A stretch of DNA of 64,000 bases from Henricia sp. BOLD:AAB3569 (lineage: Eukaryota; Echinodermata; Asteroidea; Spinulosida; Echinasteridae), in contig JBBELK010000515.1 in the NCBI GenBank assembly GCA_037783545.1, forward strand, positions 186,001 through 250,000, given 5' to 3'. Shown piece after piece: positions 40,893-64,000 of this stretch. Numbering within the stretch: position 1 is the stretch's first letter; each line of letters begins with the position of its first letter. The notes beneath the pieces were generated by a model. It ran no database searches and was not told the origin of the DNA. It saw only the letters and a program-made list of their open reading frames with translations. Position numbers and translations under genes: made by a program.

Positions 40893-42563
40893 TTAGAGTT
40901 CTGTACTGATAACATTACTATCTTCACGTTCGCCATTTATTGGTATCATATTAGAGTCACTTTCGATGTTGTTGGTGGGCTTTTCATCTCCGGTGATGTC
41001 CTCGGGGTTCAAGTCGTTTTTAGGGTAGCTCTTTCTCATCGAATTGCGATAATCGTCGAAGTTTGGATTGACGTGGTAGGTGAAGGATTTCTCCTCGTCA
41101 GGGCTGATCAGAGCAGCGTCGTCGGCCGTCGTCGAGGCGACCTGTTTGCCTCCGTTCGCGAGAGATGACATGGAGGAGATGCTCTTCATTCTCGGGATGG
41201 GTCTGAGTGCCTCGTCGTCTACGGGGTCATCCTCGGCCGTGGCTCGGTAGGCAGGGATGCTCGTAAGGTCTGGCCCGTAGCCGGCGGACTCCAGATCTAG
41301 AGGAGATCGCGGCGGGTCTCCGTTCACGATTGTATTTCCATAACGGCTTCCGAATCCACCGCGTGTCTGCGTGTAGACGATCCCCGAGTCCACGGTCTCC
41401 ACGTCATCCCGATCCCGCCGAGAGAGGGTCCTCCGGAGACCCGTCTTCTTTTTCTTGTTGATCTCCTTGATCTTTCGCTTTTTTCCGCGCCACCAGCAGG
41501 TAAAGATCACCAGTACTATCAGGACTAGACCGAGGATGATGCCGAGCAGGATCGGACCGACCAGCTGAGCTAGGCTCTTCCCGGGACGAACACGGATGAC
41601 GTGGGTATCAGCGGAGGAGCCCAGGGTATTCACGGCTTCACAGCGGATCGTGATGTTATCATCTTCCATGGTCAGTTCAGGCAAGACCAATCTGGACCCA
41701 CTCTGCTCGAGCCGTGCCTTGTTGAAACGCGGGTGCTCCTCGAACGAGATCTGGTAGTCGGCGTAGCGCCAAGTGTAGGCGAAGTCGGGAGGATTCCCAG
41801 TCGCGACGCACGTTAAACTCGCTTCGAGCCCAGTCTCAAACATGTTCTCTCCTTCGATGGTAACAATGGGAGGGTGCTGGACTTTGAGGGTTACGTCACA
41901 GGATTCGTAGCGGGCGTTATCTGGCTGACAGGTGAATTTCTGCTGATCAGCCGAAGCCTGGGCTAAAAACATGGAGCTTATTCCGGTCCCTTGAGGTCTA
42001 ATCGTGATAGGAGAGCTACTTAGCGGAATATCCCTAAGATACCACATCAGTTTAACGGTGGGGTCGTTTGAAGCGCATTGGAAGGATAAATTGTCTCCGA
42101 TAAGAGCCTCCCTGCCTTCTTTTATCCAGCAAGCCGGATTGCCAGTCGGTGGGACCTGAACGACAGTCAGGGTAGCCGGTCCTGATCTGACCGGCATAGG
42201 AGGCACATCCCCTCTAGAATCACTCAACACAACATTACAGACGTACACCCCGGCGTCTTCTACTTGAGCCTCGCTGATCATGAGATCGTAAAAACCGTTC
42301 GCAACATCCACGTTCACCGAGAATCTCCCCGGAGTGCCCGTTGGTAGTCCCCCGCCGGAATTGATCAAAAGCTCCCTGGAGCTGCCCGGCACGGACCAGA
42401 AAACAGTCACCCGGGTCTGTCCGACCCTACACCTCATCATGACAGGAGTGTTTAGCAAAGCCTCGGTATCTCTGGGCTCGGTGAGGAAAGATTGGGCCCA
42501 CACCAATACCACACAGTTTACAAAAACACTCAATAATGTCGCCGTTTTCCACGGGCCAGCCAT
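40893..42563 (-). CDS. Intronless Ig-superfamily receptor A (3 Ig, TM, long tail)
   Basis: A 556-residue type I membrane protein in one exon. Signal peptide residues 1-23; Ig1 with C45, W56 and C109 (DAGVYVC); Ig2 with C163, W174 and C212; Ig3 with C252, W265 and C308; transmembrane segment about 334-358; then a basic stop-transfer stretch (RGKKRKIKEINKKKK) and a tail of nearly 200 residues, serine- and acid-rich. An extra cysteine pair, C145 before and C222 after Ig2, is shared with the other three Ig genes in this window. Tail tyrosines include DY505RNS (a YxN motif). It probably works as a cell-surface adhesion or recognition receptor; the ligand is unknown. Complete from signal peptide to tail in one exon, so no introns are needed in the coding part. 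Confidence 0.9.
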   Translation of the reverse strand: MAGPWKTATLLSVFVNCVVLVWAQSFLTEPRDTEALLNTPVMMRCRVGQTRVTVFWSVPGSSRELLINSGGGLPTGTPGRFSVNVDVANGFYDLMISEAQVEDAGVYVCNVVLSDSRGDVPPMPVRSGPATLTVVQVPPTGNPACWIKEGREALIGDNLSFQCASNDPTVKLMWYLRDIPLSSSPITIRPQGTGISSMFLAQASADQQKFTCQPDNARYESCDVTLKVQHPPIVTIEGENMFETGLEASLTCVATGNPPDFAYTWRYADYQISFEEHPRFNKARLEQSGSRLVLPELTMEDDNITIRCEAVNTLGSSADTHVIRVRPGKSLAQLVGPILLGIILGLVLIVLVIFTCWWRGKKRKIKEINKKKKTGLRRTLSRRDRDDVETVDSGIVYTQTRGGFGSRYGNTIVNGDPPRSPLDLESAGYGPDLTSIPAYRATAEDDPVDDEALRPIPRMKSISSMSSLANGGKQVASTTADDAALISPDEEKSFTYHVNPNFDDYRNSMRKSYPKNDLNPEDITGDEKPTNNIESDSNMIPINGEREDSNVISTEL

Positions 42564-43400
42564 AACAGACTGTATTCACGCTGACACAAAACAGACGAAG
42601 CAACGTTCAAGCACCAACCATTATGTTCCCAACTTTCCCACGGTTTCCGTTCGTCAGATAACTCTCCTACATCGGAAGCACTTTCGATGAACTGAAATCC
42701 CTTTTCTCAACTTACGATTTTGAGCACCAATTCGTGTATTTCTCTTTTTGTTGGTCGTTAAATTTCTCCTCCTATCTCTCGTCGTGTCCTCCGATTACAG
42801 ATGCGAACATTCAACACCGTGCATCAACTGGTAGCGATTATGGCACACACGACGTCATCACAACCAAGGCCTCGTTACCTTCAATAGCTTTCACAGCCAC
42901 AATAGACCACGCCTGACATACTTAATGCTGCCCAGTCACCCATCAAGCAGCAAATAATAAAGTCATAGATGACAATCAAAATATGAATATTCATAAAGGA
43001 GGTCAATCCTTTCGATGTGGGAGTGCATGCTGAAAGAGCAACAAGTGAAAGGAATTGTGAAAGTGTTTTTGTTCGTTCTTTTAGAAGAGGAGGGGATGTT
43101 TTATCAATAGATACATGCAACTTGTTGTTATCAGTAGTTGGGGCTTGATTATATAGATTGTAAATTCCTGGGAGGAAACTTATAAACATGACCTCTGCAT
43201 TTTTCTCTCTTTTTTTGACCGGATGTTTTGCAATCTATTACAACAAAATTGGCGAATTTATTAGAGAATAGAAATGCAGAAAATAATTTCTGTTCAATTT
43301 TGGATGGTTAATATTTCTTCTGTTCTGTTTTTGCTAATGGTTTCTCACGTACATTATCAAAATTATCTGCTCAATTATTGTTAGTGAAATTTCTGACGTA
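42564..43400. other. Upstream region of Ig receptor A
   Basis: Probable promoter and 5' UTR side of the gene. No repeat or exon is clear; a TGACGTCA-like site near 42850 is weak evidence only. Confidence 0.3.
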
Positions 43401-43635
43401 CAGTTGAAGTCAGAAGTAAAATACAACTGTATGCAACCAAGTGTTACAATAGGTGTGTTTACACCATTTTTGTAACAGTCTTTACTGAAGTCTTGATTTT
43501 GTGGAATTCCTCACGTGCATGGAGTACTTAAAAACATAGCTTGTACACCTTGCAATGGTTCGGGTAGTCCTGTTTACCATTTTGGGTGATGATGGTATAG
43601 TGGTGTGCATGTATTGATACTTTAGACTTTAACTG
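43401..43635. mobile_element. Tc1-like MITE, copy 1
   Basis: TA flanks a 235-bp element starting CAGTTGAAGTCAGAAGT and ending ACTTTAACTG. The ends closely resemble those of the Tc1 group that includes fish Tc1 / Sleeping Beauty (CAGTTGAAGTCGGAAGTTTA). Sister copy at 54291-54523. Confidence 0.8.
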
Positions 43636-43639
43636 TATA

Positions 43640-44172
43640 TGTCTTGTTATTTTGCCCAGTTTCGCACATATTAAATCCAATTAATGCTGCATGCTTTGGT
43701 TTAGTTCCAATAGAAAATGGAAATCTTTCCTCAAATAATTTCCCACAACTTGTGGTTTCTTTCCTTCATTTCAAAATAATAAAAAGCTGCATACTTTCAC
43801 GATTTTTGTTGTGTTTTTGTAACCTTGATAAACGCATGACTGAGCCAATTTTACGCGGTTAAAAAGAAGCGAACAAAAAGTGGGCGCAGATTGTTACCGT
43901 ATAAGGAAGTGAATATCAGAAAGATTTTTTGGCAAGGGTAAACTGATTTAAATAACAATTGTATAAATAAATGTACAGCTTTGTAAGCCGGGACACAAAA
44001 GAGTGGGCGAATAATTATGCAGGCATACCATTGCCTGTGTACGTGATAATGTGCACGTACTGAAATAAATCGTTCTGGTAAAATAGAGTACCGATGTAAA
44101 ACCTCATCCTTTGTGTGCGTGTGGCCAAAATTATTGTATCTATACACTAAAAACCAGTGAACTGTTTGCCTA
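43640..44172. other. Interval without recognised features
   Basis: No exon, RNA gene or repeat found that I can support on either strand. Confidence 0.3.
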
Positions 44173-44174
44173 TA

Positions 44175-44320
44175 TAGACCGTATCGAATATCCGCCATTT
44201 CGTGGGGCACTTTTTGTTACTTAAACCGTTCAACAATTGAAGCACAATATGTGCAACCATGCATGTCCTCAAGGAACAAAGAAACTGCCCCACGAAATGG
44301 CGGCTATTCGATACGGTCTA
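44175..44320. mobile_element. TA-type MITE, TAGACCG family, copy 2
   Basis: 146 bp, nearly identical to 9285-9430; TA on both sides (44173-44174 and 44321-44322). A fragment of the GACGTCAGTTGCC family follows at about 44325-44370, so the two families lie next to each other here as they do at 9.3-9.6 kb. 44400-45570 shows nothing else. Confidence 0.85.
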
Positions 44321-45571
44321 TAGGCGCTTTAGCAATGGACGTTTCAGATTACCAGCGAATGCCACACTGGTATAGGGCCCGCTTCAAACGTCGAACTTGT
44401 GCCGTGACTAATTTAAAAAAAAACGTAAAATTGAATTAAACGAGCAAAAATTTGAACTTGGTGTAAAAGAGTGAATTGTAGGCCTACTATAAATGACGGT
44501 ATAGTGGGCAAATTTGCAGGGGTATGGAATTAGTTTTTTTACTTGTATGTATAATTATCTAGAATATAAGCGAAGTGCACATGAGCGAAAACAAATAAGA
44601 CTAGCACGCAAAAAATGCAAGTTGTAGTTTTGATGTCTCAGCGAACAAATGCGAATGTCTTTAAACAAAATTAAATATCATCTCAGGAATCACATTTAGA
44701 TTTCGCTAAAGTAAATCTATTCCACACATTTCCGCTTGTGGTTTCATTAATCGTGATAATTTCGACAAATTGAGAGAATCCATCTGTATTTATTTTTTTG
44801 TTCGAGGAGAAAGCAGCTTAATGATACAAAGTCCGCTTAATCTTGTTGACAACAAAATTGCTCCGTGTGCATGCAACAAAACCGGGGAGCGATGTTGCTA
44901 TTTCAGCGTACTGCCGAGGTGTCATTTTCACGGGCAGGAAGTCTGATTATACCGGCGTTGGTATAGCAACGGACACCTGCCGAGGTAGCTGACAATAGAC
45001 TAGAATTAATTAGCTTTACCCATAAGAAAGCGAAATGATATTGCAGAGACGAAATAATTGTATTTGACAAGGGGATTTTTGTTATTTAAAGATAAATCGA
45101 GCCATCTTAAAAAGAGGTCCTTGGGACATTGCAGATTACTTGTTATAACCGGAACATTGGTTTTATCGGGAATGAAATAAAACTGAAGAACCAGGAATTG
45201 AGACCGAAGATTTTTCTTGTTAAAGCCCCAATACATCATTTGAAGTGACCCAAAATTTTACTTCACGAGTTGACAAGAAAAAAACCCGACTAAAAGTATC
45301 GATAGCAATGGTTAACAAACACAACATGTTTTTTGTTTTCGTGTAAAATGGTACCTTTATGGGAGACATTGCCAACTAAAGGTGTTTTTTTCAACTCTTT
45401 ACCATTCATTCAGTTCATACACAAATATATTCTTCAGGTTTTCTGAAGTATTACTGCATCTATGTGGCTTAAATTTCTACAAGGCAGTTTATCAACACTA
45501 TTCTGTACTTATGTAATGCTGTTGTTCCTGTTTTTAAAAGTTTTCCAATAATGTAATTATTTAACCTCTTA

Positions 45572-45716
45572 TAGACCGTATCGAATAGCCGCCATTTCGT
45601 GGGGCACCTTTTGTTACTTAAACCGTTCAACAACGGAAGCACAATATGTGCAACCATGCATGTCCTCAAGGAACAAAAAACTGCCCCACGAAATGGCGGC
45701 CATTCGATACGGTCTA
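45572..45716. mobile_element. TA-type MITE, TAGACCG family, copy 3
   Basis: 145 bp, nearly identical to the two other copies, TA on the left and TT on the right. It lies about 100 bp before the 78-bp satellite array. Confidence 0.85.
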
Positions 45717-45823
45717 TTACCGAGGTTTGAGTGTACATTATTTCTGCCTAAACCCACCCTGAACAAAATAATCCCCCTACCGCCCATGTTTACCGAATTA
45801 ACTAACTTATTTTGAATAGTGCT

Positions 45824-46745
45824 GTGCCAATTCGAATAATTTGCTATTCGATATTCCAATCAATTATCGAATAATCGTTCAGACTATTTTAGATACTACA
45901 GTGCCAATTCGAATAATTTGCCATTCGAATATTCCAATCAATTATCGAATAATCGTTCAGACTATTTTGGATACTGCAGTGCCAATTCGAATAATTTACC
46001 ATTCGAATATTCCAATCAATTATCGAATAATCGTTCAGACTATTTTGAATACTGGAGGGCCAATTCGAATAATTTGCCATTCGAATATTTCAATCAATTA
46101 TCGAATAATCGTTCAGACTATTTTGCATACTGCAGTGCCAATTCGAATAATTTACCATTCGAATATTCCAATCAAATATCGAATAATCGTTCAGACTATT
46201 TTGGATACTGCAGTGCCAATTCGAATAATTTACCATTCGAATATTTCAATCAATTATCAAATTATCGTTCAGACTATTTTGCATACTGCAGTGCCAATTC
46301 GAATAATTTACCATTCGAATATTCCAATCAAATATCGAATAATCGTTCAGACTATTTTGGATACTGCAGTGCCAATTCGAATAATTTACCATTCGAATAT
46401 TCCAATCAATTATCGAATAATCGTTCAGACTATTTTGGATACTGCAGTGCCAATTCGAATAATTTACCATTCGAATATTTCAATCAATTATCGAATAATC
46501 GTTCAGACTATTTTGCATACTGCAGTGCCAATTCGAATAATTTACCATTCGAATATTCCAATCAAATATCGAATAATCGTTCAGACTATTTTGGATACTG
46601 CAGTGCCAATTCGAATAATTTACCATTCGAATGTTCCAATCAATTATCGAATAATCGTTCAGACTATTTTGGATACTGCAGTGCCAATTCGAATAATTTA
46701 CCATTCGAATATTCCAATCAAATATCGAATAATCGTTCAGACTGA
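45824..46745 (+). repeat. 78-bp satellite array, ~12 units, higher-order trimers
   Basis: About twelve tandem copies of a 78-bp AT-rich unit (CCAATTCGAATAATTTACCA, TTCGAATATTCCAATCAATT, ATCGAATAATCGTTCAGACT, ATTTTGGATACTGCAGTG). Because 78 is divisible by three and the unit lacks stops, two plus-strand frames and minus frames stay open for hundreds of bases; these are not genes. Unit variants (ATTTC+GCATAC; CAAATATCG; CAATTATCG) recur in order, giving a 234-bp three-unit higher-order repeat over the right half. Confidence 0.93.
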
Positions 46746-47210
46746 CTTGGTCACAATTGTGTATAAATTCAAAAGTAAACGATTTTGATAGTATAGGCTA
46801 CAACAAACTGTGATGCAACGTATAAACTAAAGGATTTAGTTTGCTTTCGTATATAGGTTTCCTTTTGGCAGAATTTAATTCCTGTATAGCAACAGACAGA
46901 ACACCAAATGTTACAAAAATACTAATTGTCGAAGTGCATTTGTTCATCAACTGCATTTGCGAATATTCATATCCTGAAACCATTATTTGGATATTTGAAT
47001 AGTTGAATATCTTGCCATGCACAAAGTCAAAATCGATTGGGGTAAGTTAGCTAGTACTTATTTTGTACATCAAAATAAAAGAGAAAAAAAGTAACTCGGG
47101 ATGCCAAATAACAAATTCAATTTTATTTGTTTGACTTAATTAAATATACACAATTACAGCAACCATAATTCAATATCAAAAATCACAACAACGCGCAGCA
47201 ATATTGATGT
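46746..47210. other. AT-rich interval without recognised features
   Basis: No exon or defined repeat seen. Confidence 0.3.
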
Positions 47211-47214
47211 AACA

Positions 47215-47662
47215 GGGTAATTCCCAAAATTAGGGGTCCAAAATGTTTGGTGTCCCATACGTACGACACTCTCTGTTTTAAAAATCACCACTTATGACCA
47301 CAAATTCTCAGTAATGGACTGTGGCATGTGATTAAAGGGGGCAGCATCATTTTCTTCAATATTTTGTTTTCTGATTCCTGAAAAATATATTCAAAACAAA
47401 AAACCATAAAGGCTTATAATTTGTTTCATGGTATTGAATAGGAGTTTGGTGTCCCGGGTTACCTACGCCAATGAAAATTGGCTGTAGAATGAGTTTGCAT
47501 TAACCTTGGTGCCATATGTACACACAAACATTAAATTTGAGTGGCATTTGTTCAAATAAAAATAATTATTTTCTACTGGGAAACCACTTTCAATCATTAA
47601 AAACACTTGGAAATCTTAAAAAGCATGTCACACTTTTGGAACCCTAATTTTGGGAATTCCCC
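47215..47662. mobile_element. MITE, diverged longer GGGTC-like element
   Basis: Ends GGGTAATTCCCAAAATTAGG and CCTAATTTTGGGAATTCCCC; perfect 4-bp duplication AACA at 47211-47214 and 47663-47666. It shares the GGGGTCCAAAA..TGTCCC-type subterminal layout with the three GGGTC copies but is 448 bp. 47670-48300 shows nothing else. Confidence 0.8.
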
Positions 47663-48311
47663 AACATCAAAAAGACTTTTAATTCAAATTATTGTACCTT
47701 TTAAAATTTTGATTAATACTTTTTCTCGTTTACCCGACATTATGCAAAATACATCTGATTCAATTAAATGTCTAAAATATCTGTATATCTTTTTACAAAA
47801 TATGTACCAGAGAGCTGTTTTCTGTCTCATTTCTGAGTAATATGATGTGTGGAGTAATATGCACTTCGCAGTTCTGTGAAAGTCCAAAGAACTCTAAGTC
47901 ATTTCATAAAAATACAAGATTTTTTGTGTTAAAAAAAATCGTATAGGCCCTAATTATTCAAACCACAAAATACTAGCAACTTTTGGAATATAGTTCTACA
48001 ATTTGTTTTGTGCTGGTAATCCCACGGCTTCCATGCATTAAAATACTAACAGATATTGCCATTTAATAAATCAATCTGTGTAAAGCCAGTATTGTTTTTT
48101 TAACAAGCAATGTATTTCCAATATATTTATTTTCTATTTTTTAGTAATATAAAATATTTTTTAAATTAGAAAAATTTGGCAGAGAAATGTATAAAAAGGC
48201 CCAGCTCAAACGTCCATCTTTTGCCGTGTCTAATTCAATTAATTACAATCAACACAAAAGTAGCAGAAGTTATTTTGCTTCAAACGTCGACTTTTTGTCG
48301 GAAGCAATAAA

Positions 48312-48475
48312 TAGAGTGCTAAAGTGTGACGTCAGTAACCAGGGTAACTGGGTCTAAACATTCGCTGGTAATCTGCACAGGCCATCGCTAAAGCGTGGGG
48401 AAACAGTTCACTGTAGACCCAGTAACCTTGGCAACACACAATGGATGACGTTTTCACTTCAGTACTATACATACA
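48312..48475. mobile_element. MITE, GACGTCAGTTGCC family, copy 2
   Basis: GTGTGACGTCAGTAACCAGG at left, GATGACGTTTTCACTTCAGT at right; internal CATTCGCTGGTAATCTGCAC as in the 9.4-kb copy. Confidence 0.75.
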
Positions 48476-48935
48476 CTTCGCATTTCCGCATACTCGAAAT
48501 TAGTCAATACAACTATGTGTTGTTTCATACAAACGCAAAACTGAACAGCAAAAGAAACGCACATTTACAGATTAATCAAATTTTGAAAATTTCCTTTTGT
48601 AATTAAGCTGACATTGAAATATTCAAAAAGTGAAAAACAAATGCTTTTCTTCTGCTGCTGGGTGTAATTTTGTGATAAAAACATTCAGTCAGAAAAAAAT
48701 GTGTATTCGAAGTATTGAGTATTTTTAAGACGTAGCCAATGAATTTGGGCACGATTATAATCAATCGTAATACCAAGTATATGGACATTATCAACCGGTA
48801 CCAATTCCATTTGTATTCAGTCACGTAGATTAATTTAATTGAATATTGCAGTAATTCGACGTTTAAAGCCACGTCGCCTGTTAGAACGGCAGACTGTCGA
48901 ATTTTTGGCACAAAGTCGGCAGTTGCTTAAAAAGG

Positions 48936-49165
48936 GGTGTGTTTGAAACCCGGAGGTAGCCGGAGGTCGGAGGTAACCCGGAGGTAGAATTTATTGTGAC
49001 CGTGTAGTACATGCTACAACCTACCTCCGGCTTGTTATTTTAATACCACGTAGCTCCGGAGCCACCGTCAACACACCAACTACACGTTAGCAAAAACAAT
49101 CTACCTCCGGGTACCTTTGGGTACCTCCGACCACCTCCGACCTCCGGGTTTTATAAATTTCCCTT
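48936..49165. mobile_element. MITE rich in CCGGAGGTA
   Basis: GAAACCCGGAGGTAGCCGGA at left; CCTCCGACCTCCGGGTTTTA at right. CCGGAGGT or its complement occurs about ten times, mostly near the ends. 48480-48930 and 49170-49460 show nothing coding. Confidence 0.7.
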
Positions 49166-49462
49166 AAAAAGTCAATCTATACTTTATGGGTTTATTTGAA
49201 TTACGCACGACAGAAGTTCGACATTCAAAGAAGGCCTCAGTCCATCATTTATCAAAACAGAATGAGAGTTAAAAATTGAGTACTAATCTTTCAGAAATCA
49301 GTGGCAACAATTTCTCGAACTTGATATCCAAAAACATTTGGGCAAAATATTAGAATCCGTTTCCCTCCCAAAATTAAGTTTGTACCGAGAGAGACAAAAG
49401 CTTGATTTCCTGAAATCTGTCTGCATGACAAAATTAAATTATAACACTCGAAAGTCGAAGAC

Positions 49463-51274
49463 TCACTCCATGATATTAAGTCCCACATTTTTAGTGAAAT
49501 CCAATTCTGCATAGATGATGCGATCAGGAGATTTATTGTCACTTGTTGGAGTCGGAGATGCACTGGAATTGTCTTGACTGTTGTTACTACTCACTGGAAT
49601 ATTGGACGTGATGCTACTGTCCTGACTGGGTCGTCTTTTTAATTCCTCCGATTTCTTCCTGTAGTGTCTTATACGCTTCTTCTTGGAGCCATCTCTTTCT
49701 CCTCCAAGATCGTTCACAGAAGGTTCAGAGTGGTCCGTGGCGTCTGTTTCTCCAGTAGCTACAGAGACAGTGTCTTTTGAGTCAGTGTCTTTTGATAAGG
49801 AGGTCGGACGGGGCGGTGGCGTTGGCATTTTTGTGGGGCCATTCTCAGTTTCTCCTCCTGTCGATGTCGACGGCGTATCAGCTGATTTATGTAACTCAGG
49901 CTTAGATGATACATTTAGTTTCTTAATCTGAGCGTAAATTGGGTCTTTAGTGGGTGCCTTCAGCCGAGCTTTCACCGGGGGCTCCTTGTAATGCTTGGTC
50001 GCCCTTTTCTCTTTCTTTCGTGGTCGTTGAGTTGCTTGTTTCGGGGGAGCGACTGGTTTCTTTTCAAGTGTTTGCACGGGTTTTTCGAACTTCTGGTCTA
50101 TGTTTTTGTTCAGCGTGAGGTTTTTCTTTTTTGGTTTTGGAGCAACTGCAGTTTTGGTATCGGGTTCGGGTCTCGTCTCTTTATTAACTTCGGAAGCAAT
50201 TTCGAATTCGTCTTGCGGAGCCGTTCCCGGCGTTGGATTTGGTTCATCTCTTGTTCTGTCGTCTTCGGGCGCCGCGGAAGCGACCGGTTCTTGGGAGGGA
50301 ACAACGTCCGGAGGTTGCAATATGGCGTCCAGGTTTTCGTAAGGGTGAGGACCGTCTCTGACGGACTGGCGATCACCGTCTTCGCTGGCGAAGTCCACGT
50401 CAATAGCTACGACCGGCGGCGGAACCCATGCTCCCGTCTGCAGGGAGTTCGCGTCCAGGACGGTGTGGGGCTCCAACATGGCTTCCCTGCAGAACCTGCA
50501 TTGACGATGTCTGAAGACGATAAATAGCACCGTAACAAAGAGCAATAGGGCGATGAGGCTCATTAACCCGACCACAACAAAGGGAATCACATCAGTTTGG
50601 GCCGGAGTCTTAAAAATTATAAAACAGCTTTCTGAGATCATATTAGGCCCACTTAGTGCAGCCTCGCAGACGAACGCGGGCTCCGAGTTGGATTCTAACC
50701 TGCCGGTGTAGGTGATGGAAACGGTCGTGTTCGCTCGGGTGGTCTCAATTTTATCAGGAGGCGGGGGTTCGAATTTATCCGGGACCAACAATCTCAATGA
50801 AGTGTTGGCGTGCCCAGTCGACACGCAGGTAATGGTAAAAGAATCCCCAACTGAAATAGTGCCACTGATTGGTAGGCTTTCACAAGCCGGATTCCAAGTT
50901 TTGGGCAAGACTTGCAATTCCCCCACAGACGAGTTCAGTTCTCCGAAGCCGCAATAATAATGTCCCGTGTCCTCAACTTTGCTGTTATTGATAACAAGTT
51001 CCTTATCGAAAGAACCGCCAATAACTGAAAATCGATACAGGTCATCACTAATTTCCATTCCGTCATTCCTGAACCATTTGAGTGGGATGTCATCCGATGT
51101 ATTTCCAGTTACCATGCAGGAGAATTCAACATTCCCTCCCTCGACAACTAGCCGACTTGATGGCTCCCTGTTAAATCTGAGAGCTGCCATATCTCTTGGC
51201 GTGCACGTAATCAAAATCAGCACAGATAAACGCACCAGCCACGCAACCAGTTTCAAACTTCTCCGGTCGGCCAT
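49463..51274 (-). CDS. Intronless Ig-superfamily receptor B (2 Ig, TM, ITIM-like tail)
   Basis: A 603-residue type I membrane protein counted from ATG at 51274, which has a good initiation context and begins a clear signal peptide (residues 1-29); an in-frame ATG at 51382 would add 36 residues and bury the signal. Ig1 has C53, W67 and C108 (DTGHYYC); Ig2 has C150 and C203, bracketed by C131 and C217, the extra pair shared by all four Ig genes here. Transmembrane segment about 229-254. The 349-residue tail is lysine-, proline- and serine-rich, with PY312ENL, IY447AQI and IIY588AEL. The last is a full ITIM consensus (I-x-Y-x-x-L), ten to fifteen residues from the C-terminus, as in vertebrate inhibitory receptors. 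A PTPPPRP stretch near 484-490 could bind SH3 domains. Predicted signalling receptor. Confidence 0.9.
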   Translation of the reverse strand: MADRRSLKLVAWLVRLSVLILITCTPRDMAALRFNREPSSRLVVEGGNVEFSCMVTGNTSDDIPLKWFRNDGMEISDDLYRFSVIGGSFDKELVINNSKVEDTGHYYCGFGELNSSVGELQVLPKTWNPACESLPISGTISVGDSFTITCVSTGHANTSLRLLVPDKFEPPPPDKIETTRANTTVSITYTGRLESNSEPAFVCEAALSGPNMISESCFIIFKTPAQTDVIPFVVVGLMSLIALLLFVTVLFIVFRHRQCRFCREAMLEPHTVLDANSLQTGAWVPPPVVAIDVDFASEDGDRQSVRDGPHPYENLDAILQPPDVVPSQEPVASAAPEDDRTRDEPNPTPGTAPQDEFEIASEVNKETRPEPDTKTAVAPKPKKKNLTLNKNIDQKFEKPVQTLEKKPVAPPKQATQRPRKKEKRATKHYKEPPVKARLKAPTKDPIYAQIKKLNVSSKPELHKSADTPSTSTGGETENGPTKMPTPPPRPTSLSKDTDSKDTVSVATGETDATDHSEPSVNDLGGERDGSKKKRIRHYRKKSEELKRRPSQDSSITSNIPVSSNNSQDNSSASPTPTSDNKSPDRIIYAELDFTKNVGLNIME

Positions 51275-51382
51275 CTTCGTTATAGGTACAGCTTCACCTC
51301 GTGGAGTCAAAAAAACAATAACCACAAACTTTACCAAGCAAGAAACTTTCCCACCATTCGATGTTACAAACTGTTGTCTCAT

Positions 51383-51945: not shown

Positions 51946-51949
51946 TATG

Positions 51950-52255: not shown

Positions 52256-52264
52256 CTGATTTAA

Positions 52265-54099: not shown

Positions 54100-54290
54100 T
54101 TAAATCCGTTGGCAAGTCACAACGTTATTTAGGATCTAAATTAGGACATTTTTTGGACACGTATAGTGACATTGGTGTCACATTGGTGATGATTATGGGA
54201 TTGTACATGTATTGGGGTGGCGGTACTAATATATATTGTTTTTTAAAGAGAAAATATTCCAAAATAGGTCTCCAGAAATTTAGTTAATTA

Positions 54291-54523
54291 CAGTTGTAGT
54301 CAGAAGTTCACATACAACTGTGTTAAAACTGGTGTGTTTAAACTTGCGTTGTCACCATTTTTGTGACTCTCTTTACTAAAGTCGTGATTTTGTGGAATTC
54401 CTCACTTGCTTGCAGTACTTAAAACATAGCTTACGGACCTTGCAATGGTTCGGGTAGTCCTGTTTACCATTTTGGGTGATGATGGTAGTGGTGTACATGT
54501 ATGTAAACTTCTGACTTCAACTG
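54291..54523. mobile_element. Tc1-like MITE, copy 2
   Basis: TA at 54289-54290 and 54524-54525; CAGTTGTAGTCAGAAGTTCA at left and TGTAAACTTCTGACTTCAAC-TG at right, about 30-bp inverted ends of the Tc1 / Sleeping Beauty type. 233 bp, so no transposase. Confidence 0.87.
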
Positions 54524-54529
54524 TATATG

Positions 54530-55730: not shown

Positions 55731-56101
55731 ACTGCAAAGGTACCAGACTACTTCGCATTCCAAACTAGTCTGGTACCCTCTCGTTCAGTAGCTTACATTT
55801 TATGAAACGGGTTCAGGGGACATGACTGAAAATGGCGTCTGTGCATGCACATGAAAATCAGAGCCTTTCATGGCACGATGACTATGTGGGTAAACTGCGC
55901 CAAATTGCTGGCAAATTCTTGCCACCTTCAAAATAATCTAATGATAAAGGATTTTGAAGGCCCAAAATATAATAAGTCGTCATGAAATAGGCGTTGATAA
56001 AAAGTCTGGGGTGCGTTCCAGTTACGCGAACGCTCCAAACGTTCGCCACTGGTTACAGTGTTTTTGTGCACTCGTCTATGGAAAGCACCAGCTGTTGGCG
56101 A

Positions 56102-56252
56102 ACGTTGGACGTAAAACGCGAACGTGAACGCGAAATGCTTTGAGGACTTTGTCGTTTACTTTGAGGCAAAATAACTTGCCGTGACAAAAATTCGAACCAA
56201 TGCTCAAGCAATTTCGCGTTCACGTTCGCGTTTTACGTGCATCTATACCTCC
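56102..56252. mobile_element. Short MITE with GTAAAACGCGAACGTGAACG ends
   Basis: ACGTAAAACGCGAACGTGAA at left and TTCACGTTCGCGTTTTACGT at right, about 150 bp. Same family as the nested element at 3864-4111. 56260-56850 shows nothing else. Confidence 0.75.
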
Positions 56253-56855
56253 TATTGTTTGCGCGTTTGAACGCACCCATGATCTATGGGCTTGCAAAAT
56301 GCTCTGTTTATGACCTTTGCTGTATAGTCTATACATAATTTCAGTTAACCTCAACAGATCTATACCTAATCGTGGAAATTTCGTTGCAAAATCGAACATT
56401 TTAGGCATACCTATAGCCCCATCCTGTAAAATTTATCACAATAAGCCTCTAAATATGCAGGAAAATGTCCGCCATTTTGTTTTTATTCGAGCAATTATTG
56501 CAACTGAAATGTGACCGCAACACAAACGGGCCGCAACGTCGGCAATTTGTTTGAATTTTGTTGTGATGTTATAATAAAATCTAAACATTGTATGAAATTT
56601 TGTGATTTTAGCTATTGGGAACATGGTGGTTGCTGTATATATTAACATTTTAAAGAGGCTTAATTTGGGGTCCTTTGACTTTAAACGCAGATTTCTCGCA
56701 TTTGTATATATTCAGACATGGCCAGATTCAGTAAGTGGTAATTAAGCATGATCTTAAAGCGTATTCTAAAACTGTTATTTGGAGCCGACTTTATACAGCC
56801 TATTCGTGGTGGATGGTCACATCTGTTAGAAATGATTTTCCTTTAATTTTGGTGT

Positions 56856-58412
56856 CTACTCGAAGTCTGGATCCATGATCGGTTCTGAAGAAGGGTAAGA
56901 CTGAGACAAAGAATTGCTATGCACACTGTCTCTTTGGAACGTCTCGATACCGTCATTGGCCTCATCGCTTTGGAAAGCCTCGTTGAGATTCTGGTACCTG
57001 GGCCCTTTCTCGCCGGTCTCGAAATCGTTGCTTGTGCTGGCTTCCTTGGGCCCCCCGTCGAAGGGAATCGATTCCTGACCTCCCTGGAAATCCTCGATCG
57101 GAGCCATCTCCTCGTCGTAAACCTCGATGAAGTCCCCGTCCCCTGCCTCTCGGGCTGTAGTCGGTCTGGACCGGTTCACGGAGTACCTCAGTCGGTCTTT
57201 TTGTTTGTCGTCTTCTAGGTTCGATCTGTCCACGCACAAGATGCAGCCGACGACTACGAAGAAGATTAGGACAACGGCAGCAATGGCGCCAATTATGACC
57301 AGGATCAGCCATGTTGGAAGCGCCCCCAGGCGTTGGATCTCCATCCTGTCTTCGCCAACTCCGATCTCGTTAGTAGCGCGGCAGTAGAAGTCCTTCCCGA
57401 CGTCATCTGTCGTCAACTCGATCCTAATTGCCGTTGTGCCTAGTTCGCTTGTAGGTACGGGCTCCGAGGTCTTATTTAAAGGAAGAATAATCCTAGGGCC
57501 GAGTGTTATAGCCGGGTAGCCGTAGGCTTTGCACGTCAGCTCCACTGAAATCGTCTCTAGAAGCTGAACGCCGACAATTTTGGGGGACACGGTAACTTTG
57601 GGTTCAAAGCGGACTTTGAGGAGATTTTGAGGCCCGGATACATCATCATCTGTACATGACCTCTCAGCTGATGTCCTAGCGGGGTGGCTCTCCGTGCATC
57701 GGAAGTAAGACTGATGATCGATACTGGATAGTTCCACCCTAGCCGTAGTCGTCACGAAATCATCTTGTACGATCGTCTGGCTTGGTAGGTCTTCCACCAC
57801 GTTGTTCCCCTTGACTCGGGCCCAGGACAAGCTGGGTAAGGGTATCCCACCCATTGAGGAGCATGTCAGACTCAGAGTGTCCCCCTCCTCGTATTCGCCT
57901 TGGGCGTTGGGCTTCGGTGTCCCGTTGCACTGGAAAAATTCCGGCTGTGGAACCACGGCCTTGTCCACCACCGACAAAATAGCTCCTGCCTCCAAAGCGG
58001 ATGACGCGTAGTCCCTTGGATCGCTAACCAAACAAGTATACGACCCGGTATCAAGGGAAGTCACATTAGCAACTTGGAGGTTATACTCTCCCATCCCTGG
58101 GTCTCCGACGAATTGAAATCTGGGGTAGGAGTTGTGAGTGTTGGTATTTGGACCCAGGGTGAAATCTTTCCCGGCGGCGTTCTCCGCGGATCGCTGGTTG
58201 ATGTTCCAGAAGACGAGATGACTTCCTCGATTGGCGATGGTGCAGTAAAAAGTCACTGGGAAACCTTGGACGGCTGTGGTGTCACTCGGTGTTACCGAAA
58301 ACGACGGCTGGTCGTTACTTTGTGACAAAACTTCCGGTGTCACCAACAAAGCGACAATGACACAACATATGATCGCCACGCGTTGGCACGCCATGCTTAG
58401 ATCAAAATTCAA
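56856..58412 (-). CDS. Intronless Ig-superfamily receptor C (3 Ig, TM, tail)
   Basis: A 518-residue type I membrane protein in one exon. Signal peptide 1-30; Ig1 with C57, W69 and C127 (DTGSYTC); Ig2 with C184, W197 and C239, bracketed by the extra pair C162 and C253; Ig3 with C294 and C344; transmembrane about 366-393; tail of 125 residues. The tail contains LRYSVNRSRPT, FQGGQES and FETGEKGPRY473QNLNEAFQ, all conserved in receptor D (62647-64000), so C and D are the closest pair. Y473QNL is at once a YxN (Grb2-type SH2) and YxxL motif. N-glycosylation sites lie in the ectodomain (NVT at 116, NGT at 163, NKT at 313). Likely a surface recognition receptor; ligand unknown. No vertebrate orthologue is claimed. 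Confidence 0.9.
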   Translation of the reverse strand: MNFDLSMACQRVAIICCVIVALLVTPEVLSQSNDQPSFSVTPSDTTAVQGFPVTFYCTIANRGSHLVFWNINQRSAENAAGKDFTLGPNTNTHNSYPRFQFVGDPGMGEYNLQVANVTSLDTGSYTCLVSDPRDYASSALEAGAILSVVDKAVVPQPEFFQCNGTPKPNAQGEYEEGDTLSLTCSSMGGIPLPSLSWARVKGNNVVEDLPSQTIVQDDFVTTTARVELSSIDHQSYFRCTESHPARTSAERSCTDDDVSGPQNLLKVRFEPKVTVSPKIVGVQLLETISVELTCKAYGYPAITLGPRIILPLNKTSEPVPTSELGTTAIRIELTTDDVGKDFYCRATNEIGVGEDRMEIQRLGALPTWLILVIIGAIAAVVLIFFVVVGCILCVDRSNLEDDKQKDRLRYSVNRSRPTTAREAGDGDFIEVYDEEMAPIEDFQGGQESIPFDGGPKEASTSNDFETGEKGPRYQNLNEAFQSDEANDGIETFQRDSVHSNSLSQSYPSSEPIMDPDFE

Positions 58413-59590
58413 GTCAATGGAACTTCAAATCACACGAGGTCCTCTCTTCGTCTTAGACGTCTTTTAGATTTCACTTCCAACAACGTATTTTAGCTTCACT
58501 CCCGAATCATCAACACGACAGTTTAACATTCAAAGTTCGTGCTGCTGGTTTCTTGATCAAAAAAATCTTTGTGACTTGAATCATCTGTTAAATTTGACGA
58601 AAGAAGTTTATGCTTGTTAGGGCATTTGCCCGTGTAGTCATCAGTCACCCCAGCTTAGTTCAACTGCAATTTTCCACAGCAAACTAACTCACCAGGGCGC
58701 GGTTTGGTTTGTCTTTCATCGTGGTATCTGACCTGTGACCTGTGTTTACTTTCGATTCGTGCTGGAATCAAACATTTTTCCAATGGGGGAGTACAGAGAT
58801 GTGCCTTGCAATCCGCTTTTTAGTTCAGACATTTATTCCTTTCCATAATCCTTTCGTCCAATCATTTATTCTCAATGTTACACTTTTAAATGAGTGAATG
58901 ATAACACTCTAACGATATTTAGCAGAAATATAAGTTTAGTTAATCTATAGGATCGCCCCTCCAAGGCAAGAGTTCCATGACCCAGACGGTGTTTCTAGTT
59001 TGCACAATTCCGAGCTTTCGCTTGTCAAAACAGCGAACAAAAAGGGGGTGTACAATGGGTACATGGCCATGGGGTTTAGCCTGACTCGCTGAGCAAAGGG
59101 GCTGCATTCGTTGGCGTTCGGCTAATTCTTAAACCAACAAAAAACTAGAACTTGACATATTTCTCTTGCCGAGATGTGGGCGAAAGTTGTTATACCAAAA
59201 CAACATGTGAATGGTCATGATCGCATGAAAAATTACTTTGTAAAGTAATAAGAATGACATGATGCAATGCTTGTGGAAAATGCATTTCTTTTGTACGCCC
59301 TTATATAGAGCTCGTACACAAGATACAAAAGTAAATCTACACAATTATTATGAAATACCATATAGTTGATTGATAATGCTGCTGCCCATTTTCGAAATTT
59401 AATCAGTCCTCAAATTTAATTTTCTCTTTGTATATACACCATTAGTTGTTGTTTTTTAACCTACGGCAGAACAAAAGGAGAGGGCGCAATTCCATTCGGG
59501 TATACATTTTATGTAAAAACGTATTTCTTTCTAAGAAATTGATTTACTTGTTGCATGTGTAATCATGGATGTTACAAAGACAGAGCTGCA
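58413..59590. other. Upstream region of Ig receptor C
   Basis: Promoter side of the gene; no exon or repeat recognised with confidence. Confidence 0.3.
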
Positions 59591-59733
59591 TGTATATATA
59601 AAGTAAATGCAGTGACCATCCTCGAGACCGTTAAAAAGTAGCCACTATAAAAAGGTGGGCTCTTTATAAAGGTTGAATTAGCATTGTACACATGGCATTT
59701 GGGACCAAAGATGGATGGCCAGTATATAAACCA

Positions 59734-60000
59734 TCGATATATAATCACTGGATGAAGTATGCAATAGCAGTTCATACGAAAATTGAAGCCATGCGCCGGC
59801 CGCCATTGTACCCCACGAACAATGCTTGGCCTAGACTGCTCCCCGATCCATGCGATCGCTTGCATTCCACTTAACACATGTGGAGCACTAGTGAAGACAG
59901 TATGGCTAGTCTAGGCAAGGCATTGTATTTGGTGGGGTACAATGGTGGACGGTGGCTTCAATTTTAGACGTCGTTGCTTTATCCAGTAATTATATATCGA
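59734..60000. mobile_element. MITE with TCGATATATAAT ends and long arms
   Basis: TCGATATATAATCACTGGAT at left and ATCCAGTAATTATATATCGA at right; arms continue through ATTGAAGCCA, CCATTGTACCCCAC and GGCCTAGACT blocks. About 267 bp. Confidence 0.8.
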
Positions 60001-60063
60001 TGATATAAACAGGTGGCATCTTTATCCAGTAGTCACCATAGACTTGTTTGACTGTAAATGGAG

Positions 60064-60225
60064 AGCCGAAGTGTGACGTGTTTGCCATGGTAACTGGCTC
60101 TAAACATCACGGCTGCCAAATAAAGCGCCATTGCAAAAGTACAGGGACACGGTTAAGTGAATTTTAGTGTAGAGCCATTTCCTACGCAACTAACAAAGGG
60201 GTGACGTATTCACTACCGCTGTCTA
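60064..60225. mobile_element. MITE, GACGTCAGTTGCC family, diverged copy 3
   Basis: AAGTGTGACGTGTTTGCCAT at left, GGGGTGACGTATTCACTACC at right. It sits 45 bp from copy 4. Confidence 0.65.
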
Positions 60226-60270
60226 TGTAATGACGTTTACTTCGAATATCAGATTAAAGCGCGCCCTCCT

Positions 60271-60434
60271 ATAGACTACTAAAGTGTGACGTCAGTTGCC
60301 ATGGTAATTGGGTCTGAACATTCGCTGGTAATCTGAAACGTATATTGGTATAGCGCAGGGAAAGGTTCACTGGTTTTAGTGTAGACCCAATAACCATGGC
60401 AACACACAAGAGGTGACGTTTTCACTTTAGTGGT
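60271..60434. mobile_element. MITE, GACGTCAGTTGCC family, copy 4
   Basis: TATAGACTACTAAAGTGTGA at left and TCACTTTAGTGGTCTGT at right, with TGACGTCAGTTGCCATGGTA and ACCATGGCAACACACAAG as inner mirror blocks; the clearest copy of the family. Confidence 0.8.
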
Positions 60435-60604
60435 CTGTTGTGCCCGCCATGCATACTTGAAAAATGTTAGTTAATAGTCTCAAACAGGTTCAAGCCAGTT
60501 GGTGCTCATTCCACGACCAGAAAATGTCCAATGTATATTGCGTATATTTTTCTAGTATTATCTGGAGTAAATACAGGGAACTAGACAATATGGTGCCACA
60601 TTAT

Positions 60605-60719
60605 GGCCTTTTTTCCAAATCTCGACTTGGGCTCGGGCTCAGGCTCAGGCTCCGGCTCCGGCTCCATGTAAACCACATGGAGCCGGAGCCTGAGCCCAAG
60701 TCGAGATTTGAAAAAGGCC
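60605..60719. mobile_element. 115-bp hairpin MITE with GGCTC(A/C)G repeats
   Basis: GGCCTTTTTTCCAAATCTCG at left and CGAGATTTGAAAAAGGCC at right fold into a near-perfect hairpin. The left arm has six GGCTC(N) hexamers and the right arm fewer, so the arms differ by repeat slippage. Confidence 0.85.
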
Positions 60720-60924
60720 TATATTTACTTTTTCCACCGGGCCTTGGAATGCGCCCATTTTGAATTACGACTGCGCATGCGTAGAACGACCGCGTATGGG
60801 AGCCGCCATCATCCTCTGCGGTTTTTACCAAATACACCAGAATTGTTACAAAATCTTTTTTATTGTCAGATTCAAAAATTGAAGCAAACATGTTATAGAC
60901 CTATTCATGCGAAATGACAATTTC

Positions 60925-61100
60925 ATCGTGTCCCCTGAATCAGTCCTATAGAGTGCAAAGTGCTGACTGGAAAGGTACCAGACTATATGCGTTCCAAGCC
61001 TCGTCTTGACAACGATATTTGAAAGGCATACGTGGCTGGCACCTTTCGAACTTGTAATTTGTATTCTATGGAATTGATTTAGGGAACACGACTGAACCAC
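60925..61100. mobile_element. MITE with CGTGTCCCCTGAATCAGT ends, copy 2
   Basis: TCGTGTCCCCTGAATCAGTC at left and the diverged GATTTAGGGAACACGAC at right; internal GTTCCAAGCCTCGTCTT shared with 37803-37975. Confidence 0.75.
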
Positions 61101-62640
61101 CTGTCTAAGTAATATTGAAATATTGTAAACTAATCAACAAAAATGTACTCTTTTAACTACATCCATGCTAGCAACATAGATAATTATCTTTGCTAACTAT
61201 AGCAAGTAATATTTATTAAGCATGCGATTAAAATGTTTGTTTACATATCACAATAAAAATATACATCTTCAAGTAAACTATTCTCATTTGTCACATAAAT
61301 GCCCATTTACCCTTTTGTCGCGTGAGTTAGTACTTTTAAACTTTCACGTAAATCGACAATTAAACAAAAATGTCAGTCACCATTTCATTTTGTTCTATAT
61401 ATTTACAAAATCAATATTTGCGCAGAAGCTATTTATTTATTTATGTATTTTTATCAAAATCGGCGTAATTTACGACATTAACATAACAAAACTTACAAAA
61501 CCATTAAGTTTATGCGGTCAATCTTTTTTTTAACAATTTTGTTTTTACAAAATGGCCAAACGGTCATTTGTTTATCGACAACAGGTGCGCGCACTTGTTA
61601 AAGACCATCGTGTCATTTGCAGACGAAACGTTTTTTAAGTTGCACTGTCCGATTTTAGGCCGATTTGAGCGTCAATTGTTTTGTTTTAAGTTAAATTGCT
61701 ATTTTTGTATAATAGAAAAAGTTATCAGCATTCATTTGGTACCAAGAAAGTAAAAATCCGTTAAGGATTAATGCCAGAAATAATAGAAAACATGTTGACA
61801 TTCTTAATGAGGTTTTTTACCTGACATAGGGATTCTCCAGATAAATTGATTATTCTTCTAAAAGCCATCATCCTGTGTGATAGTTTTATTTATTACAAAT
61901 TTAGAAAACAAGAAACAATAAAAGACAGGCCCCGTCTTTTATTCGACAGGGTTATGACGTAATGTACATGTGCGAGTACGTGTTGTACATTGTACACATA
62001 CTATGTACATATGAGCGTACGTACATGTACATGTTAAGCCTGTTTCAAGAAAATTATCTCCAGTTCCCAACGTCGGAAATTTAAGTTTTTTTTCTGTATT
62101 TTTCGTTACAGAGACACGTAAGCTTTCTAAATTTGTTCGCTTGTGTGGATTAATTTTGTTTAATCCTTTCACCCAAACGCGGACAGTGAAACTTTAATGA
62201 CATTCATGGTAACAACGGCATTACATATTTATAGAGAAGAATGTTGGTAAACTAGCCTGGAGCAACCTCATATGCACAGATGCAGAAAAACTTTAATACT
62301 CGTGTATTATTTCTGTGTATAGAATGAATGCTAAAAATTAAGTTGAATTCAATAACCCTGCAGTGCTTTAGTGGAAATGAAAAAGCACGCTATAGCAGAA
62401 ATATTAAAGCTAACTTCAGCACAAATGAGTTTAAATCCACTTGTCACGAAATACCATTCAGAGGAACAATATTGAATTTAACTCAATGTTTGATGTTAAA
62501 AGTTCATGATGCCGTGTGAAACAACTGTTAAAGAAATTACTTTCAAAACAATTTTATAAACTTTAAGAGAAAAAAATGTAATATGGAAACCACAACCATG
62601 CATAGTTCTTAATTACCCTGTAACCGCTTGGAAGGGCTTG
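61101..62640. other. AT-rich interval 3' of Ig receptor D
   Basis: No exon or defined repeat. A GTACATGT / ACATGTAC alternating tract at 61960-62035 is simple sequence. The 3' UTR of receptor D must lie at its right end. Confidence 0.35.
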
Positions 62641-62646
62641 CCGTCT

Positions 62647-64000
62647 CTAAACACGACTTAGCTCGGCGTCAGAGGGAGGGGGAGCTGAGAGAGCTTCCGG
62701 TTCGACCACAACATCCGGGTTGAAAACCTCATCGGCTGCCGTGGCATCTTCGTGCATGGATTCGGCGTCACTGGGCGGATCAGGCTGGACTAAATCCTCC
62801 TGGTACGCTACGTTCACATTCTGGTACGTGGGGCCTGTCTCTCCAGTCTCAAAGTCCGAGTTGACGATGGGCTTCCTATCTCCAAAGCCATTCGACTCCT
62901 GGCCGCCCTGGAAGTTGCCGACGGGAACCATTCCGTCGTCTAGGAAGTCATCCTCCCCCTCGTGTCGCATAGACGTCGGCCGTGACTTCTTGGTCGAGTA
63001 GCGGAGACCGTTCACGTCGCCTTTACCGAGGTCTTGGTCGGATCTGTTGACGCACAGGACGCAACAAATTACGCTGATGAAGACCAAGAGTACAACAGCA
63101 ATGGCGGCGATAAGAACAAGGATTAGCCATGTTGGAAACGGTCCCAGTATGATCTCAAGTCTGGCTTCACCAAGGCCCAGTTCATTATCGGCTCGGCAGT
63201 AGAAGTCCTTGTCGACGTCTTCTGCTGATAATTCTACTTCCACCAGGGTCTTGACATCCGTGCCACCTGGATAGCTTCTGGCTGTCTTGTTCACTGGAAG
63301 GATGATCACCGGAGACCGGGTCGGCAAGGGGTTTGCTTTGACCTCGCAGTTCAGTGTCACTTTTCGGGTTTCTAGCTGGTGAACGATGACTACGTTCGGG
63401 ACGAGTGTGACTTCGGGCTTAAAGCGAACATCCATGGGGGACTCGGAGCCAGTGAACGGCGTCATGCATGTTGCTTGAGAACCGGTTGAGATAGCAGGAT
63501 GCTCTTCTATGCATTTGTAGAATGCTTGATTGTCATCGCTCGTCAAAGTAATCTTAGCAATGGCAGTAGTCACATCCCCGCTGACAGTCGTGGTGCTTCG
63601 CAGTTTATAACCGCCACCATAAGAGTCCTCCATGCTTTCGGAACCGCTGATTCTCACCCAGGAAAGCCGAGGGCGGGGCACGCCTCCTTTTGAGTTGCAA
63701 GTAAGCGTCAGGACGTCTCCCTTCATGTATACACCTGGTTTCAAGAGACTATTACCCAACGGGCTCCTGTTGCAATCCGGAATTCTAGTAGAGGGAGGCG
63801 TAGGGGTGTTTTCAACAGTCAATATAGCCGTTGTTTCCATTACAGAGTTCGGATCTTTCATGGGATCAAAGACGATACATTTGTAGCTGCCTGCGTCGCT
63901 TGTGCTAACGTTCATGACATTGAGATTGTATTCGCCTTTGCTCGTTTCGCCAACGAACTTGAAGCGTTGATACGACGTGTGAGTGTTAGCGTTGGGACCC
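62647..64000 (-). CDS. Intronless Ig-superfamily receptor D (5' end beyond window)
   Basis: The frame stays open to the window edge, giving at least 450 residues; the signal peptide and the start of Ig1 lie beyond 64000. Visible, numbered from the edge: end of Ig1 (DAGSYKC41), Ig2 with C101, W114 and C163 bracketed by the extra pair C76 and C178, Ig3 with C218 and C268, transmembrane about 290-317, then a 130-residue acidic tail. The first visible stretch GPNANTHTSYQRFKFVGE matches receptor C (GPNTNTHNSYPRFQFVGD). Tail motifs shared with C: LRYSTKKSRPT, FQGGQES and FETGETGPTY392QNVNVAYQ. Y392QNV is a YxN motif. The ORF's first internal ATG at 63915 is not the real start. Same strand as receptors A-C. 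Confidence 0.9.
   Translation of the reverse strand, partial: GPNANTHTSYQRFKFVGETSKGEYNLNVMNVSTSDAGSYKCIVFDPMKDPNSVMETTAILTVENTPTPPSTRIPDCNRSPLGNSLLKPGVYMKGDVLTLTCNSKGGVPRPRLSWVRISGSESMEDSYGGGYKLRSTTTVSGDVTTAIAKITLTSDDNQAFYKCIEEHPAISTGSQATCMTPFTGSESPMDVRFKPEVTLVPNVVIVHQLETRKVTLNCEVKANPLPTRSPVIILPVNKTARSYPGGTDVKTLVEVELSAEDVDKDFYCRADNELGLGEARLEIILGPFPTWLILVLIAAIAVVLLVFISVICCVLCVNRSDQDLGKGDVNGLRYSTKKSRPTSMRHEGEDDFLDDGMVPVGNFQGGQESNGFGDRKPIVNSDFETGETGPTYQNVNVAYQEDLVQPDPPSDAESMHEDATAADEVFNPDVVVEPEALSAPPPSDAELSRV

Follow-up and report, generated by a model that had tools for sequence, protein, structure and literature searches.

A cluster of four apparently single-exon immunoglobulin-domain receptor genes with an additional cysteine pair around Ig2 in Henricia sp.

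Gene build and domain content

The window analyzed here is a stretch of 64,000 nucleotides from the starfish Henricia sp. BOLD:AAB3569 (assembly GCA_037783545.1, contig JBBELK010000515.1, positions 186,001 to 250,000 of the forward strand), with 34-46% GC per 4-kb block and few long reading frames. Four long uninterrupted frames, named here genes A, B, C and D, lie on its minus strand between about 40.9 and 64.0 kb. They encode proteins with immunoglobulin (Ig) domains in which two additional cysteines flank the core pair of Ig2. The coordinates within the window and the products, in amino acids (aa), are the following:

40893-42563, minus strand: gene A, 556 aa; signal-like start; Ig1-Ig2-Ig3; membrane segment at about residues 338-356; 197-aa tail ending in STEL
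49463-51382, minus strand: gene B, 639 aa if read from the first ATG and 603 aa if read from M37; two Ig domains; membrane segment at about residues 271-289; 348-aa tail with the motifs YENL, YAQI and IIYAEL, the last resembling an immunoreceptor tyrosine-based inhibitory motif (ITIM)
56856-58394, minus strand: gene C, 512 aa from the ATG; three Ig domains; membrane segment at about residues 364-382; 125-aa tail with YQNL
62647-64000, minus strand: gene D, 450 aa visible, the frame running open to the edge of the window; tail of 134 aa that contains YQNV and ends in SRV

A sequence-only reading of this DNA had described four single-exon, minus-strand genes for type I membrane proteins. The uninterrupted frames bear this out, with the reservation that D is cut by the window edge, its visible part comprising a portion of Ig1 followed by Ig2, Ig3 and the membrane segment. 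All four genes show one strong hydrophobic segment C-terminal to the Ig domains, and a hydrophobic N-terminal segment is present in A, B and C, the N-terminus of D lying beyond the window edge. In-frame stops occur close upstream of the first ATG (at -15 in A, -27 in B and -33 in C), and a search of the 300 bases preceding each of these three genes for a simple splice acceptor pattern (at least six pyrimidines, at most one base and then YAG) gave no match. In gene B, the sequence context of M37 (A at -3, G at +4) is better than that of the first ATG. Over their coding part, A to D are single-exon type I membrane proteins, D being partly seen; the 5' untranslated region falls outside this statement.

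Based on Pfam searches, the models Ig_3, I-set and ig scored over cut-off in the four proteins (whole-protein Ig_3 scores of 76.8 bits for A, 41.7 for B, 64.2 for C and 47.5 for D, with a cut-off of 30). The V-set model exceeded its cut-off in A, in C and narrowly in B (26.1, cut-off 26), and stayed below it in D; C2-set_2 was present in A, C and D. The number of Ig domains differs, with three core B-F cysteine pairs in A and in C and two in B; gene D shows two complete pairs plus the F-strand cysteine of its partial Ig1. Judged by the Pfam cut-offs and the core cysteines, A to D belong to the immunoglobulin superfamily. The NCBIfam models, made for prokaryotes, gave weak matches under cut-off for A, C and D, all of them on hydrophobic segments, and none for B.

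The additional cysteines of Ig2

The ectodomain cysteines of A, B and C consist of the core Ig pairs and exactly two extra residues flanking the core pair of Ig2; the visible part of D has the same layout, with one extra pair around Ig2. The corresponding codons, whose positions were worked out by hand from the residue numbers, are:

42129-42131, minus strand: first extra cysteine of A (C145), 18 residues before the Ig2 B-strand cysteine
41898-41900, minus strand: second extra cysteine of A (C222), 10 residues after the Ig2 F-strand cysteine
50882-50884, minus strand: first extra cysteine of B (C167 from the first ATG, C131 from M37), 19 residues before the Ig2 B-strand cysteine
50624-50626, minus strand: second extra cysteine of B (C253 from the first ATG, C217 from M37), 14 residues after the Ig2 F-strand cysteine
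57927-57929, minus strand: first extra cysteine of C (C156 from the ATG, C162 from an upstream TTG), 22 residues before the Ig2 B-strand cysteine
57654-57656, minus strand: second extra cysteine of C (C247 from the ATG, C253 from the upstream TTG), 14 residues after the Ig2 F-strand cysteine
63772-63774, minus strand: first extra cysteine of D (C76, with numbering that starts at the edge of the window), 25 residues before the Ig2 B-strand cysteine
63466-63468, minus strand: second extra cysteine of D (C178, with the same numbering), 15 residues after the Ig2 F-strand cysteine

The claim that a cysteine just before Ig2 is accompanied by another after its core pair thus holds for four genes out of four, at distances of 18 to 25 residues before and 10 to 15 after. 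Under random placement, the chance that both extra cysteines of a protein fall in those Ig2 windows is about 0.0013-0.0034, calculated separately for A, B and C, a figure to be read knowing that the windows were set after the data were seen and that C and D are non-independent cases. At the first extra cysteine, A and B have in common the motif NPAC. The alignments of CD276 from the PDB reach the place of the first extra cysteine only, and no cysteine is found there.

In the Ig fold, strands A and G have their starts at the same end of the domain. In a predicted structure of the gene C product, the first extra cysteine falls inside the strand formed by model residues 131-135, which we read as strand A, and the second directly follows the strand 216-222, beside a loop (226-232) with a predicted local distance difference test score (pLDDT) below 50. 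Since one cysteine would lie in strand A and the other at or just before the start of strand G, at the same end, a disulfide within Ig2 is plausible, the two extra cysteines bonding to each other as an A-G bridge. Two observations count against this reading. The models are of low quality (pLDDT 74.1 and a predicted template-modelling score of 0.53 for C; pLDDT 37.3 for B), and a cysteine at the second extra position is not unique: of six titin domains that could be aligned with the Ig2 profile, two have one there, in alignments that stop short of the first extra place. The same models leave room for another arrangement, in which the extra cysteines would form intermolecular disulfides and the receptors would be covalent dimers: the distance between the two residues is unsettled by them, C247 standing beside the low-confidence stretch and the model of B being as poor as stated. 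However, both cysteines occur in every gene and flank one domain, apparently in strands A and G, which argues for an internal bond, and we regard covalent dimers as improbable.

Kinship, divergence and cytoplasmic tails

Genes C and D are 45.6% identical over 408 residues, nearly the whole visible length, and their tails are related with a shuffle z of 26; by this similarity they are clear paralogues. Identity amounts to 52% in Ig1 (67 codons visible), 38% in Ig2, 48% in Ig3, 63% in the membrane segment and 41% in the tail. Because the synonymous sites are saturated (proportion of synonymous differences, pS, 0.743), the duplication is old, and rapid divergence is not demonstrated. The nominal ratio of nonsynonymous to synonymous divergence (dN/dS) was 0.14 overall and 0.11-0.30 in the computable parts, being undefined for Ig1, and saturation makes these values unreliable. 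The receptors had been called fast-diverging in the sequence-only reading; with dS saturated and dN/dS below one in the computable parts, we found no support for this description, and within the limits of saturation there was no sign of positive selection between C and D.

Gene A is related to C in both directions of search. With A as the tblastn query against the window, C was matched with 27% identity at an E-value of 3e-9, in an alignment of 400 columns that covers residues 25-382 and includes the membrane segment; with C as the query, A was matched with 26% identity over residues 31-349 at an E-value of 3.5e-5. The ectodomains of A and C gave a shuffle z of 18.4. When A to D were compared by tblastn with the whole window, matches with an E-value of 1 or better occurred only among the four genes, apart from one of 18 residues. 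The latter (16920-16973, to the membrane region of D, E 0.39) was taken as a chance match and not as the remnant of an Ig gene.

The sequence-only reading had traced the four genes to one ancestral receptor. Our comparisons give this strong support for C and D and good support for A, and weak support for B. Several observations weigh against a single family. The ectodomain of B shows weak kinship to the others (z of 7.9 to A, 4.4 to C and 5.1 to D), its Ig2 taken alone is under every Pfam cut-off, and its GC content at third codon positions (GC3) is 0.48, the values for A, C and D being 0.59-0.63. Tail homology was not found by shuffle comparison for A-B, A-C, B-C or B-D, and was marginal for A-D (z 2.3, with 10 of 300 shuffles as good). 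The Ig2 of A is no nearer to the Ig2 of C and D (scores of 36 and 32) than to some other domains (41 against Ig3 of D, 36 against Ig1 of B). Since these scores do not single out Ig2, the equivalence of this domain between A and C/D is deduced from the order of the domains and from the extra cysteines. Finally, the term family refers here to four genes of one window.

Such observations could be explained if the Ig genes were unrelated or distant, gene B having been retrocopied separately into the region and its extra cysteine pair having arisen by convergence. In addition to the GC3 value and the tail without homology, B has two Ig domains and its best PDB sequence matches (DCC, myosin-binding protein C and NCAM, among the best 60 of 145 at E 0.1) differ from those of A and C. 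The match to DCC amounts to 39.5 bits summed over three DCC domains, with 15.0 for the best single stretch. Within the window the best tblastn match of B is A (25.8 bits, E 0.19-0.24); these two scores are on different scales and give no ranking. Yet B has the same strand and single-exon build as the other genes, its extra pair sits in the same domain and carries the NPAC motif as in A, and its Ig2 compares with that of A at a z of 4.5, with 0 of 300 shuffles as good. That the genes are unrelated or distant, B above all, is in our judgement quite unlikely.

Concerning the tails, YxN, the docking motif of Grb2-type SH2 domains, is present in all four (two sites in A and one each in B, C and D), with a shuffle chance of at least that many of 0.08-0.22 per tail. 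An ITIM-like sequence, [ILVST]xYxx[ILV], is found in one tail of the four, that of B (I-I-Y-A-E-L; shuffle chance 0.20), which contains three YxxI/L/V/M sites altogether (shuffle chance 0.026). No closely spaced YxxI/L/V pair resembling an immunoreceptor tyrosine-based activation motif (ITAM) occurs in any of the four tails. The C-termini are STEL in A, NIME in B, PDFE in C and LSRV in D, of which only STEL and the SRV end of D resemble PDZ ligands. The YxN, ITIM-like and PDZ-like features serve as hints; the motifs were chosen after the sequences had been seen and are not rare by chance, a point against the explanation favored below.

An alternative explanation is an immune recognition cluster of expanded, diversified blood-cell receptors, similar to paired receptors, with B inhibitory through its ITIM-like site and the others acting on different adaptors. 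In its favor, the genes are tandem, intronless and divergent, B has two YxxL/I sites besides IIYAEL, the PDB match ranking first for C is CD276, and the matches of A include FCRL5. But A, C and D have no ITIM, the single one of B has the chance level given above, and ITAM-like pairs are missing from every tail. Moreover, the usual ligand-binding domain is Ig1, and the visible Ig1 is the best conserved Ig domain between C and D (identities above), the reverse of what a diversified binding domain would show, with the caveat that most of the start of Ig1 of D lies off the window. The dN/dS comparison, within its saturation limits, likewise shows no positive selection. We consider an immune cluster unlikely, though it keeps some weight.

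The rest of the window holds other features, described here for their own sake. It contains 35 stop-to-stop frames of at least 110 aa, of which 23 (8 + 15) were searched with Pfam; the 15 further frames gave two matches at an E-value of 0.01 or better, a Myb/SANT-like domain over cut-off and a DMT match under it. The features are:

3417-3863, plus strand: frame of 148 aa that contains a Myb/SANT-like DNA-binding domain (E 2e-7, over cut-off)
9706-10449 and 10649-10874: tandemly repeated unit of about 77 bp that by eye resembles a tRNA-derived sequence, like a short interspersed nuclear element
21841-21972 and 25494-25613: short, oppositely oriented arrays with a 16-bp unit, which adjoin inverted repeats of 68-106 bp or lie inside them
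22207-23559, minus strand: 450-aa single-frame open reading frame (ORF) from an ATG, without a Pfam match at an E-value of 1 or better
26861-27958, minus strand: intronless rhodopsin-type G protein-coupled receptor (GPCR) gene, 365 aa
32475-33067 and 33391-33985: directly duplicated segment of about 590 bp, the copies being 98-99% identical and about 916 bp apart from start to start; the duplication stops about 450 bp short of the second GPCR gene
34435-35682, plus strand: second intronless rhodopsin-type GPCR gene, 415 aa
38671-38742, minus strand: Rfam tRNA match (30.5 bits, threshold 29) without an ARAGORN call, probably a tRNA-derived repeat
45808-46743, between genes A and B: tandem array in which a 78-bp unit is present in 12 copies, with 95% matches

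The Myb/SANT-like domain is common in transposon-derived genes. The two GPCR genes are inverted relative to each other and show 92% complementarity along 1035 nt; the nearest PDB sequences of the second are tachykinin receptors (substance-K receptor, E 4e-25), followed by galanin and RF-amide receptors. A search for relatives of the neighboring GPCR in viral contigs gave six matches, none of them confirmed. On its plus strand, the 78-bp array contains a 315-aa ORF in which DUF7790 and ParE_like are just over the whole-protein cut-off, no single stretch passing; since the period is a multiple of three the frame stays open through the array, and this ORF is probably not a gene.

Nearest relatives and comparison with known systems

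The best PDB sequence matches of gene A (best 60 of 1911, at E 0.01) were SYG-2, an antibody construct, neuroplastin, FCRL5 and Robo, with the poliovirus receptor lower and antibodies making up many of the matches. Those of gene C (44 sequences) were CD276, SYG-1, Rst, sidekick-1 and DIP-alpha. A profile of the Ig2 domains retrieved titin, receptor phosphatases and SYG-2 first, that is, generic Ig domains (best 60 of 1704, at E 1). In a Foldseek search with the ectodomain model of C, DIP-theta, NEGR1, a marsupial T cell receptor, Rst D1-D2 and Necl-5/CD155 stood near the top by E-value; the query TM-scores were low (0.24-0.35 over the first twelve matches), perhaps because the interdomain angles are different or poorly predicted. 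Together, these sequence and model matches point to the adhesion and recognition part of the Ig superfamily, without placing A to D in one named family, and a role in adhesion or recognition is likely, judged from these relatives. Gene C, the one of the four that was scanned against viral contigs, gave five pattern matches there, none confirmed. In the literature on intronless or single-exon Ig genes, of which most subscription papers fell outside the coverage, no paper was recognised as a description of this family.

The explanation we favor, with moderate confidence, is that A to D form a local family of ancient date. Its members would be single-exon type I Ig superfamily proteins of the general nephrin/Kirre/SYG-nectin-DIP/IgLON kind, tandem duplicates with a disulfide-pinned Ig2 and signaling through tail tyrosines. 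In its favor stand the Pfam, PDB and Foldseek matches, the kinship of C with D and with A, the presence of the cysteine pair and of YxN sites in all four genes, and the GC3 of 0.59-0.63 in A, C and D within DNA of 34-46% GC per 4-kb block. Its ancestor would have been an intronless gene, probably a retrocopied Ig adhesion gene, that was tandemly duplicated long ago and whose copies then diverged. In the proteins, the distal V/I-type Ig1 may bind a partner in cis or in trans, and the extra disulfide from strand A to strand G, at the distal end of the middle Ig2, would stiffen the Ig1-Ig2 junction. Engagement of the ligand could then lead to phosphorylation of tail tyrosines and to docking of SH2 proteins, on the YxN sites of the four tails and the ITIM-like site of B. 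A bolder version, which we hold to be rather improbable, takes the genes as a lineage-specific and so far undescribed family of Ig recognition receptors without introns. Their middle domain would be stiffened by the A-G disulfide and their binding architecture would be common to all members, and one recognition module would have been led to different pathways by tails swapped or wholly rewritten, one inhibitory-like and the others Grb2-like or PDZ-ending.

The kind of receptor is already known; what makes these genes interesting is how unusually they are built, together with their cysteine signature. If the four genes are one family, the ectodomain plan and the extra disulfide would have been kept over deep divergence while the tails were replaced, and the Ig2 cysteine pair could serve as a marker for finding further members in related animals. 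If they were immune receptors, they would be an addition to the Ig-based recognition families of invertebrates.

A second disulfide around a core one is known from other Ig proteins. In the IL-1 receptor family it flanks the core disulfide of domain 1, about 21-23 residues before and 8 after, a spacing similar to that seen here but in domain 1 rather than in Ig2; an IL-1 receptor was absent among the PDB matches listed for A, B and C. Domain 2 of CD2/SLAM proteins has an outer and an inner disulfide, with the first outer cysteine only about 7 residues before the core cysteine, whereas the distance in the Ig2 of A to D is 18-25.

Three adhesion groups also bear comparison. Nectins have a V-C-C ectodomain of three Ig domains and one membrane segment. 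Three Ig domains and one membrane segment occur in A and C as well, both of which match V-set and C2-set_2. Nectin/nectin-like proteins (CD155, Necl-5, CADM) turn up when A is compared by sequence and C by fold, though the CD155/Necl-5 structures are only 16-18% identical to the C model. We know of no nectin with an extra cysteine pair of this kind. Nectins share an afadin-binding C-terminal PDZ ligand, and a C-terminus of this type is not common to A to D, the ends that approach it being STEL in A and SRV in D only. The nephrin/Kirre/SYG group (SYG-1, SYG-2, Rst, Kirrel) has, like the present receptors, a V/I-type Ig1 followed by a C2-set_2-like Ig2; SYG proteins are among the best, though weak, PDB sequences for A and C, and Foldseek matches C with Rst. 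However, nephrin/Kirre members have introns and about five or more Ig domains, against three in A and C and two in B, and SYG-2 has a cysteine at neither extra place in an alignment that spans both, unlike A to D. Among the DIP/Dpr/IgLON neuronal recognition proteins, the DIPs and IgLONs have three Ig domains, as do A and C, and supplied the top Foldseek matches of C (DIP-theta and NEGR1). Dprs and DIPs are reported to be anchored by glycosylphosphatidylinositol (PMC10863630), whereas A to D possess a membrane segment and long cytoplasmic tails.

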